From positions 1 through 35,850 of IMG/VR virus record IMGVR_UViG_3300035698_006058: a stretch of DNA of 35,850 nt; one strand, given 5' to 3'. This DNA comes from a virus. Below are positions 1,105 through 35,628 of the stretch, in pieces (positions within the stretch are counted from its first letter, which is position 1; each line of letters starts with the position of its first letter). Made by a program: the position numbers and the translations under genes. The notes below the pieces were generated by a model that worked only from the letters and a program-made list of their open reading frames with translations, had not been told where the DNA came from and searched no databases.

Positions 1105-1390
1105 TGTCCCACGTGTCCCACGTCTGTCCCACGTCAAAAAAGGTACATATGGGACAGCACAAGCCTTTGTGGCCGTGGGTTGTAGCTATTTTGTCCCATG
1201 TCCCACGCACTTTTGACCCCTCAACCTTCCTACGTGGCCACTCCTCTCTATATAATATATACTCTATTACTTTTATAGAGAAAGACATAGGACACGTGGG
1301 ACAAAACGCTCCCCCCCACGGCCACAAAGGCTTGTGCTGTCCCACGTGTACCCGTTTTGACGTGGGACAGACGTGGGACACGTGGGACAA
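1105..1390. repeat. Large inverted repeat with iteron-like 9-mers; candidate replication origin
   Basis: The left arm 1105-1179 is complementary to 1315-1389 with only four mismatched positions (1140, 1141, 1148, 1149). After small gaps the complementarity continues to about 1205/1291, so each arm is close to 100 bp. The 9-mer GTCCCACGT occurs perfectly eight times in both orientations (starts 1106, 1115, 1126, 1294, 1339, 1360, 1371, 1380), with variants at 1147, 1193 and 1200. The central loop (about 1206-1290) holds an AT-rich TATAATATATA core with its own TCTCTATA/TATAGAGA repeat. The stretch 1014-1496 holds no credible gene. Repeated binding sites, AT-rich core and position next to the primase-helicase resemble a replication origin. 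This is inference; a recombination or packaging site is possible. Confidence 0.6.
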
Positions 1391-1501
1391 ACTCTTTTTC
1401 AACTCTTTTTCAACTCGCATAAAACTACAAACTCGCATAAAACTACAAACTCGCATAAAACTACAAACTCGCATAAAACTACAAACTCGCATAAAACTAC
1501 A
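1390..1501. repeat. Five 18-bp and two 11-bp direct repeats beside the primase gene end
   Basis: AACTCGCATAAAACTACA occurs five times without interruption (1412-1429, 1430-1447, 1448-1465, 1466-1483, 1484-1501). Two copies of AACTCTTTTTC (1390-1400, 1401-1411) precede it and share the AACTC start. The last 18-mer covers the TAG stop codon (1497-1499) of the minus-strand primase-helicase gene. There are no spacers, so it is not CRISPR. Together with the inverted repeat at 1105-1390 it probably belongs to one replication or binding locus. Confidence 0.85.
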
Positions 1502-3857
1502 AAATACTATCTGCAATCCACACGTATTGCCGCTCCCCGTCAACGCGCACTCTTTTACGTGAAAACCCTAACTTGCGTAGTATCTCCCCTACGCGTTTGG
1601 CCGATGCGTGATTTATCACGCTTTGCGCGTGTCCTAACGCCATCACCAGCACATCTGATACTAAAAACCCGTTGGCTGACCCCCGCGGGGAAGTACCATC
1701 AACGTCCTCTGTGTTTAGCCAACGTAAAATAATGACTTCCCATGGGTCAACGGCTTCAAACCCTTTGTTGTGTTCATTCAGTAGTGCGACCACTTGCCGC
1801 CACTGGACACCTTCGCGCGACACATTCGCACCATTCGCACCATTCGCACCAACCCACGTGCCGTTGTACAACGCGGCGCCCTCCGCCAACAACTGCTCCG
1901 CGTCCCGCTTCAAGGCTTCAACGTCTATCATGTTGTCCCCCTCACAGTCACCTTCAACACCCTTATTTACCTCATCGTCATTGTCACGCGTCGCCTTGCT
2001 ACGTCCTTTTAGCGTCAACGGTACAAAACGGCGGGAACCCGTCATATCGTTCAATATTTCGTGGTGGTTAGATGTGCCCATAAACATACACCTGCGGGCG
2101 TAGTTGCGCGACTGCTCTTTATATTTTGGTATCCAGCTGTCAATAATCCGCGTGATGAAAGATTTAATATCTTCTAGCACGCCAGTGTGTAGCCCGCGCA
2201 TCTCCCCCAGCTCCACAATCGCCTTACCGCGTATCATCCGCGCGCGCTTCTCGTCCGCGTCCGTCAAACCGACTTCACCAAACAACTGGATATGTGGCGC
2301 AAGCGCGCGCACCGCGGACGTCTTACCAATCCCTTGCCCACCACACAGGATAGGCGCAATATCAGCCTGTACACCCAAGTCAAGCGCGCGGCCAGCCATC
2401 CCACTCATAAAGTAAGCCCCTAGTGGCGCAGCAATGGCGCACTCCTCACACTTGAAGTAATCAATGAAAAGATTATGCACCCGTGGCACACCATCCCACA
2501 CCAATCCAGCAACGTAACGCTGGTAGCTATCAAACGCATTATTCAGCGCCACCATATACATCGTGTTGCGTATCATCTCACGACCCAGCGGGGCGAACCC
2601 CACCACCCGCTCTAAATGCAGTTGAATACGGGTGAAATCCTCATCCTCTAATATCCGCATATCATTACGCGCATCCCATACCACCCCGCCAATATCCTCC
2701 GCTTTCTCCCCGCTGTAGGGTTGAAGGATGATTTCTTCTAAAAATTTATCATGGGATAGAGTAAACCCACAAACATCTGCCCGCGACAACGCCATCTCAA
2801 CATTACTAATAGTGGCCTTAATCACCCCCGTCTTTGGCATACGGTCAAAGTTAGGCAAGTCAGGCTCAACCTCACCTGTATGCGCGTTCACCACTGTGGG
2901 CAACACCTCAAACTTGTCAGCAGGCAGCGCACCAATACCTGCCTTTGCCATAAACTCCGCGTCAGTTCGCCCCTCACAATGCCCATGCAGACAACGAAAA
3001 TGCCCCTCCATATAACCATTCGTCCCCGCGGGGAAATACGTCGTAGAACTTTCACCACTCTCACCTGTATGCTCTTCATGGAAAGGGCACACAATGTTCA
3101 ACTGCTTGCCGTCTACTCCCTTCACCATCCCAGCGGACTCCAACTGCTGTGCCACGTAGTCATCCATTACAATATCCGCACCAACACGACGCGCTTGACC
3201 GTCGCCGCGCTTGTCCACACCACCGAACCGCTCCGCCAAATTCTCCCATAATTCCTCAAACTCGGCGAGCGTCAACTGCCCAAAATCTTCACCCGTCCAC
3301 ACGTACGGCACGCCACTTGGGTGCATACCGTGGGCAATGAACTGCTGGCCTGTGGCCAAAAACTCAATCATCCCGCCGTTTTCGTAGTCAGGGAAGTGCA
3401 TGACGCGCTTGCGCAAACCCAATGAGTCACCTAAAACAGTGAAGGGGACTAAAAATTTACTACTGTTTTCGCGAAAGCGAATTGCAAAATCGCAACTCTT
3501 ATTTGCGACGAAACCATTGATGAAAGTTTTAATCTCTCCCGCTAAATCCTCGTTCTCAACATCCACATCTAACGCCCGCAGCACGCGTGTTTGAATACAA
3601 ATACCGTAGTCCTGTTCACCCCGCCACACCTCAATTTCGGATTCAGTAGCCAACTTCTGCGTCCACTCTTTAATGCCCGCCACCTCGCGATGCCTGTTAA
3701 GAATAGAGGGGGTTTTACCTGTACTCGCCAGCTTACTCAATGGTGATATTTTAACATGCGGGTTACTCACCACTGGCAACAAGTCTGCCGTTAAACCGTC
3801 TAGCAAGGTAAGTTTATCCCAGTCCGCCTCTAGTGCGCCATATCGAGTGTTAGTCAT
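1497..3857 (-). CDS. Primase-helicase, VapE-type (prim-pol + zinc motif + helicase)
   Basis: A 786-residue protein that probably primes and unwinds phage DNA. The first ~230 residues resemble a primase-polymerase domain (SPLSKLASTGKTPSILN, then YGICIQTRVLRALDVDVEN with acidic residues). A Cys/His zinc-like motif follows (CPFHEEH then CLHGHC, roughly residues 255-300). The C-terminal half matches virulence-associated E helicases: Walker A GGQGIGKT near residue 505, then VELGEMRGLHTGVLEDIKSF, GTSNHHEILNDMTGSRRF. The ATG at 3857 has AAGGAAAC about 10 bases upstream. It is co-transcribed with the HTH gene (15-base gap). Its 3' end runs into the direct repeats at 1412-1501, so the gene and the presumed origin are physically joined. 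The family assignment rests on motifs only. Confidence 0.88.
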   Translation of the reverse strand: MTNTRYGALEADWDKLTLLDGLTADLLPVVSNPHVKISPLSKLASTGKTPSILNRHREVAGIKEWTQKLATESEIEVWRGEQDYGICIQTRVLRALDVDVENEDLAGEIKTFINGFVANKSCDFAIRFRENSSKFLVPFTVLGDSLGLRKRVMHFPDYENGGMIEFLATGQQFIAHGMHPSGVPYVWTGEDFGQLTLAEFEELWENLAERFGGVDKRGDGQARRVGADIVMDDYVAQQLESAGMVKGVDGKQLNIVCPFHEEHTGESGESSTTYFPAGTNGYMEGHFRCLHGHCEGRTDAEFMAKAGIGALPADKFEVLPTVVNAHTGEVEPDLPNFDRMPKTGVIKATISNVEMALSRADVCGFTLSHDKFLEEIILQPYSGEKAEDIGGVVWDARNDMRILEDEDFTRIQLHLERVVGFAPLGREMIRNTMYMVALNNAFDSYQRYVAGLVWDGVPRVHNLFIDYFKCEECAIAAPLGAYFMSGMAGRALDLGVQADIAPILCGGQGIGKTSAVRALAPHIQLFGEVGLTDADEKRARMIRGKAIVELGEMRGLHTGVLEDIKSFITRIIDSWIPKYKEQSRNYARRCMFMGTSNHHEILNDMTGSRRFVPLTLKGRSKATRDNDDEVNKGVEGDCEGDNMIDVEALKRDAEQLLAEGAALYNGTWVGANGANGANVSREGVQWRQVVALLNEHNKGFEAVDPWEVIILRWLNTEDVDGTSPRGSANGFLVSDVLVMALGHAQSVINHASAKRVGEILRKLGFSRKRVRVDGERQYVWIADSIL

Positions 3858-3871
3858 GTAACAGTGTTTCC

Positions 3872-4189
3872 TTATTTATCTTGATACATTTTTGCCTGCG
3901 CCTCGCGACACTTCTTGTAAAACGGGCACTCATTGCACGTTGGTACAAGGTCTCCACGTGTCATCACAGGCAGACGTATTTTACTTTCTTCTGTAGCCAA
4001 ACGGATACTTTCCGCAGCGCGCGCAAGTCTACCCCCCAACTCGGGGGAGGGGTTGCGCCACCCGTTGGCAATTTGATTTAGGTATCCCGCGGATGACCGA
4101 CTAAGTTTAGCGAGTTCCCGTATCTCGGCCTTGCGCGCTTTGCGCATCCAGCGTTTAATAGGGCGGTATTCTTGTGCTTTTTCGGTCAT
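3872..4189 (-). CDS. HTH transcriptional regulator with Cys-rich tail
   Basis: 105 residues. Residues ~20-62 fit a Cro/CI-type helix-turn-helix (AEIRELAKLSRSSAGYLNQI followed by ANGWRNPSPE), which should bind operator DNA. The C-terminus has three clustered cysteines (C85, C88, C94 in CNECPFYKKC), which may bind a metal; a fourth ligand is not evident. It is the first gene of the leftward operon and is divergent from the rightward early genes across a control region with two palindromes, so it probably represses one or both promoters. No strong ribosome site precedes the ATG. Whether it is a lysogeny repressor or only an early-gene switch is unknown; no integrase is seen. Confidence 0.78.
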   Translation of the reverse strand: MTEKAQEYRPIKRWMRKARKAEIRELAKLSRSSAGYLNQIANGWRNPSPELGGRLARAAESIRLATEESKIRLPVMTRGDLVPTCNECPFYKKCREAQAKMYQDK

Positions 4190-34147: not shown

Positions 34148-35554
34148 TCACCGTCGCTGTGCGCGGCCGTTGCGTTGCCTATGTGATGACTTGCGCTGTA
34201 TCTTGCCCCCTGAGTGCCCGATTCCTACCAGTTGTCCGTCAGCCGTGCCTACGAAGTTCACAGCTGCCCAAACCGCCATCATTAAGCTATCTGCATAGTC
34301 TGGTGAAAACCCTAGCTCGCGCTTCATATCAACCTTAGGCTGTAACAGGCGTCTGCCATCGCTACGGAACTTCATGCGAATCTTCTTCAACTCTTTAAGC
34401 ACCTGCCTGTGGTGGCTCGGTATGCTCAGGAACCCTTGGTCAAACCACTCACTCAACAGGTAATACCCGTGTGCTCGTGCGTTGACATAGTGCTTATTGT
34501 CCACGCCCTCAATGCTCGCCCCGTCGAACCGCTGGATATTCACTCCCACTTCGGTCAACCTGTTGTACACCACGTGCCCCATACCCCCCACGTCCAGTAT
34601 CGCAGCGGTCGGCTTTATCCGCCCAATCATGTCCGTTATCTTGCCCGTACTGACCATGGCGTCAGGCTCGTCCCACGGCAGCTGCTCGTCCAGCACCCAG
34701 TGTTGGTTTGTATGTCTCGAAATAAGTGTAGCTACACACTGGTCGTCCCCATGCGCTGCAAAGTCAATCCCGAGTGCGGTTGCAGGGAACTGCGTCGTAC
34801 CAAACGTCTGCATATCCACTGCCTGTTCTAGCTTGGCGTAGTTAAACAAGTAGTCACTCGCGCCGTCGAGCGGTGTCCCGAGGTAAATATGATTATACTC
34901 CTTAATACTTTTTGCCTTCATCGTATCGGCCTCAATCTTAATCGCTTGCGGACAGAACGGATTCTCGAAATAATCAATATGCACCTGCATCGTATCGGGT
35001 CGCCCCTCGAGAAAATTATACACCGCATCATCCCGCATAAACCTGTTCATCGTGAAAAACAACCGTGCTTTGTTCTTCCGTATCGTAGGTATCAAAGTCT
35101 GCAATGTAAGCTCTGTCACCGACTGCGCTTCATCAATCCACAATATATCCACGCCCTCCAGCCCTTTAATGCTCACGCTTCCTTGTTCTCTAAACCCCTT
35201 AAAAGTAAACGTACTCCCTGTAATCAAGTGCGTTATTTTCCGTGCTTGCACCTCAAAAGGCAGACTATACTGCTCAATCAAATCCTTCAACACCGTGTAC
35301 ACACTATCCTCAATACTGTTCTGCGTCTCCCGCCCACACACAATCCGCAGCTTATACTGACTCGCAAGGTACGATAGGAACCGCGCAACGCTATGTGTCT
35401 TACCGCTTCCTCGTCCGCCTTCTCCTAGAAAATACCGATAGTCATTAAACCCCGTCACCATCGGCAACATCTTTGGTGGCATCGCCAACAGCTCGGGCAA
35501 GTGCACTTGCCCCTTATTCTCTGGGTCTACGGGTGGGCGCGTAGTAACCTCCAT
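34148..35554 (-). CDS. terL: Terminase large subunit
   Basis: 468 residues from ATG 35554, preferred because this ATG overlaps the stop of a small upstream frame (TAATG); the open frame extends upstream only to a GTG at 35608. Motifs: Walker A GEGGRGSGKT (residues 44-53), Walker B ILWIDEAQ (D141, E142), and C-terminal nuclease acidic residues in GIDFAAHGDD (D264), AILDVGG (D321) and FSPDYADSLM. It packages DNA into the prohead through the portal using ATP and cuts concatemers. The family is that of podovirus/Bordetella phage terminases. No small subunit gene was recognised. Confidence 0.94.
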   Translation of the reverse strand: MEVTTRPPVDPENKGQVHLPELLAMPPKMLPMVTGFNDYRYFLGEGGRGSGKTHSVARFLSYLASQYKLRIVCGRETQNSIEDSVYTVLKDLIEQYSLPFEVQARKITHLITGSTFTFKGFREQGSVSIKGLEGVDILWIDEAQSVTELTLQTLIPTIRKNKARLFFTMNRFMRDDAVYNFLEGRPDTMQVHIDYFENPFCPQAIKIEADTMKAKSIKEYNHIYLGTPLDGASDYLFNYAKLEQAVDMQTFGTTQFPATALGIDFAAHGDDQCVATLISRHTNQHWVLDEQLPWDEPDAMVSTGKITDMIGRIKPTAAILDVGGMGHVVYNRLTEVGVNIQRFDGASIEGVDNKHYVNARAHGYYLLSEWFDQGFLSIPSHHRQVLKELKKIRMKFRSDGRRLLQPKVDMKRELGFSPDYADSLMMAVWAAVNFVGTADGQLVGIGHSGGKIQRKSSHRQRNGRAQRR

Positions 35555-35628
35555 TACACCAACACCGCTAGCGCTACTGTCACAATGTGTTGTTGCGCGT
35601 TGAACCACTGTTTGATTTTAGTATACAT
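35554..35628 (-). CDS. Possible 24-aa leader peptide of terminase
   Basis: ATG at 35628 behind AAGAAAGAGAAG, reading MYTKIKQWFNAQQHIVTVAL then AVLV, and ending in TAA that overlaps the terminase ATG (TAATG). The terminase ATG itself has no good ribosome site, so translation of this peptide could deliver ribosomes to it. The C-terminal half is hydrophobic. It could be a real mini-protein, a regulatory leader, or the remnant of a longer gene. Confidence 0.42.
   Translation of the reverse strand: MYTKIKQWFNAQQHIVTVALAVLV

Follow-up and report, generated by a model that had tools for sequence, protein, structure and literature searches.

The repeat complex located at positions 1105-1389 of the window, by which the entire analysed stretch of 35,850 bases of a virus record is meant, is very probably the replication origin of this phage, and the VapE-type primase-helicase encoded next to it is the protein that would recognise it. 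The complex lies 3' of the primase-helicase gene, whose stop codon occupies positions 1497-1499. Besides this gene, the window holds terminase, head-tail connector, major head, tail and tail-fibre genes, hence it is to be regarded as a phage and not as a phage-inducible chromosomal island (PICI), and it further encodes a family A DNA polymerase, a DUF2800/PD-(D/E)XK exonuclease, a gp2.5-like single-stranded DNA-binding protein and an SNF2-type helicase. Within the literature searched, which was mostly open-access, no experiment on the window phage or on the origin of a VapE phage was found.

Counting of inverted repeats and 9-mers across the whole window verified the repeat cluster as real. 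The first-pass annotation had described a near-perfect inverted repeat as well as eight exact 9-mers in both orientations, and both descriptions were borne out. The arms are 87 nt long and 90% complementary, their first 75 nt contain four mismatches (at 1140, 1141, 1148 and 1149), and their score of 63 compares with 15 for the runner-up in the window when arms up to 500 bp apart are considered. All eight exact copies of GTCCCACGT, both strands counted, lie inside 1106-1388, and with up to one mismatch allowed 20 sites were identified in the window as compared to 7.6 +/- 2.5 in shuffles. Re-phased as TGTCCCACG, which is the phase that was used for the relatives, the 9-mer occurs in 12 copies (nine exact, one with one change and two with two changes), six per half and in mirror order flanking a 76-bp core, i.e., three forward, one reverse, two forward, the core, two reverse, one forward and three reverse (Table 1). 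The spacing of these iterons is 9, 11 and 7 bp and thereby less regular than in many relatives, and 23 bp of non-iteron sequence are common to both arms. Folding of positions 1090-1400 as a single DNA strand, a check that had been proposed earlier, yielded -114.7 kcal/mol versus -35.6 +/- 4.5 kcal/mol for shuffles. The core had been called AT-rich, which holds true in relation to the window (63% versus 52%), though the AT-richest 40-mer within 900-1600 was found at 997-1036, outside the iteron array. In agreement with the earlier view that no credible gene crosses the repeat, the two spanning open reading frames (1077-1562 on the plus strand and 1094-1543 on the minus strand) gave no PHROG match at E 0.01. 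Neither a terminator nor a sigma-70 promoter was found in the array above chance level, and searches for non-coding RNAs (Rfam gathering scores) and tRNAs returned none. No turn of the GC skew is seen at 1.2 kb, and its sign change near 4-4.5 kb tracks gene orientation, which renders it uninformative on the start site. The tandem repeats between the complex and the initiator gene have the unit AACTCGCATAAAACTACA and are adjoined by two 11-bp repeats at 1390-1411; neither of the two repeat types is iteron-like.

Table 1. Features of the origin-like complex and of the adjacent gene for the proposed initiator (positions in the window).
Feature	Position	Strand	Details
Whole origin-like complex, inverted repeat	1105-1389		arms 1105-1191 and 1303-1389; from folding and repeat search
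Outer left iteron triple	1105-1133	+	TGTCCCACG at 1105, 1114 and 1125
Single opposed iteron, left arm	1148-1156	-	two changes
Non-iteron part of left arm	1157-1191		first 23 bp repeated exactly in right arm (within 1303-1337)
Inner left iteron pair	1192-1207	+	1192 (one change) and 1199 (exact), 7 bp apart
Spacer, proposed unwinding element	1208-1285		63% AT (1209-1284); TATA-rich stretch near 1248-1278
Inner right iteron pair	1286-1303	-	1286 (two changes) and 1295 (exact)
Single opposed iteron, right arm	1338-1346	+	able to pair with the copy at 1361
Outer right iteron triple	1361-1389	-	copies at 1361, 1372 and 1381
18-bp tandem repeats between complex and initiator gene	1412-1503		about five; overlap the stop codon of the primase gene
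VapE-type primase-helicase, proposed initiator	1497-3857	-	winged helix about residues 703-786, wing strands 765-772 and 775-782 (predicted)
Codons of last wing strand and tail	1500-1535	-	E775-L786, ERQYVWIADSIL; segment covarying with the iteron in one clade of relatives

The proposed initiator comprises 786 residues and matches the VapE family PF05272 at 153.8 bits, the curated cut-off being 25. The only PDB entry matched by sequence was 7pds (E 6e-34; E 6e-55 in a profile search), which carries the labels 'PriRep1' and 'Similar to D. nodosus vapE' and which we take to be a SaPI protein. The AlphaFold2 model of the primase-helicase (mean pLDDT 86.5, pTM 0.56) likewise returned 7pds, 'PriRep1 with dsDNA', as the top Foldseek match (E 1.5e-24), followed by the C-terminal region of the NrS-1 polymerase (6k9c, E 1.5e-10) and by poxvirus and asfarvirus helicase-primases. 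In this model the C-terminal 84 residues fold into helices and, at the very end, a beta hairpin, and the C-terminal domain is predicted to be a winged helix. When modelled separately, this domain gave no Foldseek match at E 0.001 (best 0.05), while VIA-align identified matches at Z 5-7, among them the C-terminal part of 7pds (Z 6.0, 77 residues), with Z values below 8 possibly reflecting a common arrangement and no more. Most of these VIA-align matches are winged-helix proteins. The Prim-Pol family PF09250 was not matched by the window protein at E 0.1; three of nine phage homologues match it, one (L018) at the cut-off and two (L020 and L024) above.

Close relatives of the window were found neither by DNA among phage records nor by window peptides among viral contigs, and these collections may omit the records nearest to the window. 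With tblastn, 709 phage records were found to match the primase-helicase, every one at less than 60% identity, and ten of these were taken for analysis; by scanning viral contigs with a profile, 293 loci were confirmed, the best 80 of which were kept. Including the window, 91 loci were thus available, 89 of them with at least 300 bp downstream, and 51 remained after near-duplicates had been dropped. In the region that starts 30 bp ahead of the stop codon and ends 450 bp past it, self-matches of 6-mers peaked at a lag of 9, where 440 were counted; the upstream region gave 39, the gene itself 19, the region further downstream 17 and shuffled sequence 10. At least two such self-matches occurred downstream in 40/51 loci, the corresponding values being 8/48 upstream, 6/51 in the gene, 4/41 further downstream and 2/51 after shuffling. 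Under a stricter rule, which demands that a tandem pair be faced, at a distance of 30-220 bp, by an inverted tandem pair, 39 of the 51 non-redundant loci possess the arrangement 3' of the gene, whereas it was found in 3/48 upstream controls, in 5/51 and 0/51 within the gene, in 2/44 and 0/39 further downstream and in 4 of 510 shuffles. For the other 12 of the 51 homologues, no array was detected within 400 bp under this rule. The comparison with relatives that keep the gene, which had been proposed as a way to refute the origin, could be carried out with distant ones only; it did not refute it, even though the negative homologues remain. The homologue spacers have a median length of 81 bp and an AT content of 0.61 versus 0.43 for the respective locus, the spacer value being higher in 37 of 39 cases (p = 9e-8; spacers were picked by a script, and for the window the outer iteron sets, 156 bp apart, were used). 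Among the possible readings, that of an origin built of iterons and an AT-rich core beside the primase-helicase is hence the best supported.

By eye, a common layout of these loci consists of a short iteron hairpin after the stop codon, three forward iterons, a spacer and three reverse iterons, from which the window departs by possessing a hairpin-like unit at both flanks. Its arms are the longest of all 51 loci (the next, L052, scores 35), while its number of tandem iteron copies, eight as compared to 2-11 in the relatives, is unexceptional. As the best arms do not exceed 31 nt in 48 of the 50 other loci, a cruciform is seemingly not required; the long palindrome, in which the first-pass annotation had seen a possible cruciform, does not belong to the common design, and a cruciform as the essential signal was rejected, long arms being exceptional in the family. 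Several side observations were made in the homologues. On the gene strand, many spacers carry a TATA-rich stretch followed by a purine-rich AGGGAAAGG/AGGAAA, which by eye is retained while the iterons change, and in five loci (L032, L043, L055, L068 and L021) the initiator gene itself contains iteron-like units among its final 5-15 codons. Furthermore, an E. coli prophage whose VapE-family primase gene carries a frameshift (L130) still has an array, and no array was seen beside a VapE-family primase gene with stops in a Sodalis endosymbiont (L122).

The suggested mechanism assumes that the primase-helicase binds the 9-bp iterons via its C-terminal winged helix, whereby facing oligomers, probably hexamers, would assemble on both iteron sets. 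Next, the AT-rich spacer would melt and the helicase rings would load, so that two forks could depart in both directions, and the N-terminal half of the protein would serve as primase. The palindrome of the window may have been formed by copying one flank of a standard origin in mirror orientation, and such a mirror duplication would explain why the hairpin-like iteron unit that resides on the gene side in the relatives is found at both flanks here. Two hexamers would be in keeping with the six iterons of each half, an agreement of little weight given that the iteron number varies in the relatives.

Three other functions of the array were weighed against that of an origin. It is improbable that the array is mainly regulatory, with the initiator or an HTH-like protein controlling transcription and replication starting elsewhere. 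A small protein encoded beyond the initiator gene (3872-4189) does show a weak HTH_3 match (21 bits, cut-off 23), and the core contains a promoter-like match (1235-1263); yet a single such match equals the shuffle expectation (mean 1.0), the array of the family is placed downstream and not upstream of the gene, and iteron similarity tracks the helicase core and the C-terminus of the initiator but not its N-terminal half. Long palindromes can be recombinogenic, and the terminase gene (34148-35608) is located at the opposite end of the record, which would place it at a distance of about 1.3 kb from the array should the ends be joined; a terminase recognition site for packaging or a recombination hotspot is nevertheless very unlikely, as the arrays of the homologues follow the VapE gene and, in the family, long arms are rare and iterons are not. 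Just as little probability was assigned to a stem-loop origin of the pRN1 type, whose initiator would recognise an extruded cruciform instead of the iteron sequence: replication of pRN1 needs a 100-nt stem-loop 3' of orf904 (PMC4234260), and the window folds very stably, but most homologues have short arms with the 9-bp period conserved, and near-identical proteins were found with the same layout and different iteron letters, which would be needless for a signal of structure only.

The iteron letters of the arrays were compared among the phages. Phasing was done by hand for 38 of the 51 loci, unclear ones being left out, and in these the letters vary around TGTNNCCAC, whereby T3, C6 and T1 are best kept and positions 4 and 5 are most variable. 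When viral contigs were searched with a 17-mer taken from the window, thus using iteron DNA alone, 13 contigs were identified. In four of them, copies of the window iteron form an array directly 3' of a DUF5906/D5-type primase-helicase gene (L005, 11777-12023; L009, 5586-5860; L012, 2960-3050; L013, 7810-7900). These four primase-helicases gave no tblastn match from ten VapE queries at E 0.001, although three of them also have weak VapE matches, with L013 just above the cut-off. The letters and the position of the window iterons therefore recur beside a different branch of initiators. In another contig (L004), the array is located at the 3' end of a gene for an AAA-type ATPase with replicative-helicase matches. 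The other eight contigs gave no indication of a replication gene beside the array, neither in a family scan of one or two open reading frames each (L006, L010, L014, L015 and L016) nor in tblastn with the ten VapE queries (L007, L008 and L011). The array of L006 (994-1170) is made up of 14 tandem GTGGGAC units on one strand and adjoins a gene of phrog_17147, which has weaker tail-protein matches; no replication gene was seen alongside.

A relation between the iteron and the C-terminal wing of the initiator was identified within a clade of enterobacterial prophages, in which the initiators are near-identical up to the GK of the wing and then diverge, as do the iterons. Where two initiators have 99% identity as far as the wing of the winged helix and differ beyond it, their iterons differ, too; for instance, L068 and L095 have 710 of the 714 residues that precede the wing in common but only 2 of the 14 that follow, and their iterons are TGGAACCAC and TGTACCAAC. 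Conversely, L101 and L102, which are 78% identical before the wing and both possess MTRIFE, have the common iteron TGTACCAAC, and L059 and L106 (67% before the wing, both KCKVWE) have the common iteron TGGAACCAC. Predictions from the wings were fixed first and new loci were examined afterwards. Genome contigs provided 19 loci, of which 16 were read, the unusable ones being L119 (no stop codon), L122 (pseudogene) and L127 (fragment). Three of these loci had listed wings: L126 and L121 fit, the latter being a close relative of the APSE-1 case on which that prediction was based, and L117 has mixed iterons (GTAACC, GTATCC and GAAGCC). The near-variant wings of L109 and L120 fit as well, while L110 (MTKAW), with GAAGCC twice and GTAACC once but not GTAC, followed neither MTRIF nor MTRIW; the remaining loci had unlisted wings. 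Among 5426 complete E. coli genomes, 101 contain a match that spans 80% or more of a 961-base fragment of one VapE-type initiator gene, and in ten of these 101 records all nine listed wings and one near-variant fit the prediction, though many E. coli loci repeat combinations already seen and hence weigh less than their number.

For wing statistics, 52 hand-chosen loci of the GK wing type were used, 42 of which remained after duplicates had been dropped. Taking the nearest neighbour by the five wing residues gave the correct iteron core in 34.2 of 42 cases (ties shared) versus 12 of 42 when the preceding about 350 residues were used. With backbones at least 95% identical, the core was equal in 22/26 pairs with equal X1X2 (the two residues after GK) and in 13/106 pairs with unequal X1X2; with backbones below 85% identity the values were 19/42 and 39/602, respectively (permutation p 0.0002). 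The aromatic residue of the wing follows the same trend, F or Y occurring with CAAC in 15/15 and W with CCA in 25/27 loci, counts which each include one locus re-phased by eye (L060 and L056); the exceptions are APSE-1 and L121, where W occurs with CAAC. Across the whole VapE family the signal is weaker than in the clade. Here 34 of 37 loci entered the test (L041 was left out, its gene end being cut short), and wing position -2 versus iteron position 7 was the sole family-wise pass (p = 0.024), whereas wing position -4 versus iteron position 4 reached p = 0.002 pointwise and 0.18 family-wise. Iteron similarity correlates with the helicase core (r 0.29) and the C-terminus (r 0.23) but not with the N-terminal half (r -0.05) of the initiator. 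In Mantel tests the contributions of the C-terminal domain and of the helicase core could not be told apart (partial r 0.07, p = 0.14 for the C-terminal domain given the core; partial r 0.20, p = 0.009 for the core given the C-terminal domain).

Based on this covariation, we consider it somewhat probable that VapE-type initiators carry a short, exchangeable address label, meaning that the last wing strand sets the 9-bp iteron and that wing and origin are swapped as a unit. The motif GK-X1-X2-K/R-V/I/L-W/F/Y and the tail following it would determine which iteron is bound, and in the one clade W would correspond to ..CCA., F or Y to ..CAAC and the X1X2 pair to the middle bases. As the origin begins right after the stop codon, wing and origin together would make up a cassette of a few hundred bp, and its swap between phages would confer a new origin specificity at one stroke, perhaps thereby escaping origin-directed counter-defence or competing replicons. 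The mirror-image origin of the window would then represent one specificity, ERQYVW with TGTCCCACG. Linkage alone, i.e., the joint exchange of the adjacent wing and origin, could be behind part of the covariation; that like wings on different backbones go along with like iterons argues for recognition.

In the literature searched, largely excluding subscription papers, neither iteron arrays in VapE phages nor a relation between wing and iteron was found to be reported. The design of facing iterons is known from SaPI/PICI elements and appears to be used also by a phage that encodes its structural proteins itself and by many VapE relatives, and the wing-iteron relation is the part worth following. 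VapE phages and prophages, which form a broad group, thereby gain a testable origin, and since near-identical initiators with different wings and iterons exist in nature, the DNA specificity of a helicase family becomes testable by swaps of a few residues. The wing-iteron variants also suggest how replicons may change their origin specificity without losing function.

The first-pass annotation had found no origin design that it could name; the design is that described for SaPI/PICI satellites in PMC7581432, according to which SaPI Rep is said to recognise its origin via the C-terminal domain. As in these satellites, the proposed origin of the window lies immediately 3' of the initiator gene, and the initiator is homologous to the 7pds chain by sequence, profile and fold; on binding of iterons by the C-terminal domain, the indications are indirect, namely the predicted winged helix of the window protein and the wing-iteron covariation in one clade of relatives. 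The window differs in being a phage that itself encodes a family A polymerase, a terminase and head and tail proteins and, as compared to PICI origins by their description, in its 9-bp period, mirror symmetry and 87-nt arms. Cch2 of SCCmec is likewise a helicase with a D5-like domain, and its C-terminal domain binds direct repeats downstream of its own gene, as is proposed for the window initiator, but the same source, as far as accessible, describes three 5-nt iterons, a separately encoded polymerase-primase and a putative origin, and no facing second set of iterons (PMC7581432). ORF904 of pRN1 and its counterpart in Bordetella phage BIP-1 join an AEP primase to an SF3 helicase and, like the window, have an inverted-repeat element 3' of the gene, though that element is a stem-loop and the authors found no origin-like iterons in BIP-1 (PMC4234260); downstream of the BIP-1 position given there, no 9-bp array was seen by eye. 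The window has such a large stem-loop 3' of its replication gene and in addition 12 iterons, in which it departs from the pRN1 type. The NrS-1 PrimPol, whose C-terminal region is a structural relative of the window initiator (see above), starts at specific template motifs (PMC8718748), and two 8-nt genome sites have been discussed as its possible origin, with no iteron array described in the accessible text (PMC7102993). A parallel to the proposed exchange of wing and origin is RepA of the Vibrio cholerae PLE, for which PMC8263062 reports that origin and DNA-binding domain covary, were apparently swapped together and replicate in cognate pairs only, an origin-directed nuclease being a likely driver of this modular exchange. 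RepA, unlike the VapE relatives, uses a RepA_N DNA-binding domain and repeats of about 30 bp (PMC8263062), and whereas an entire domain is exchanged in PLE, it would be the last few residues of the protein in the VapE relatives.
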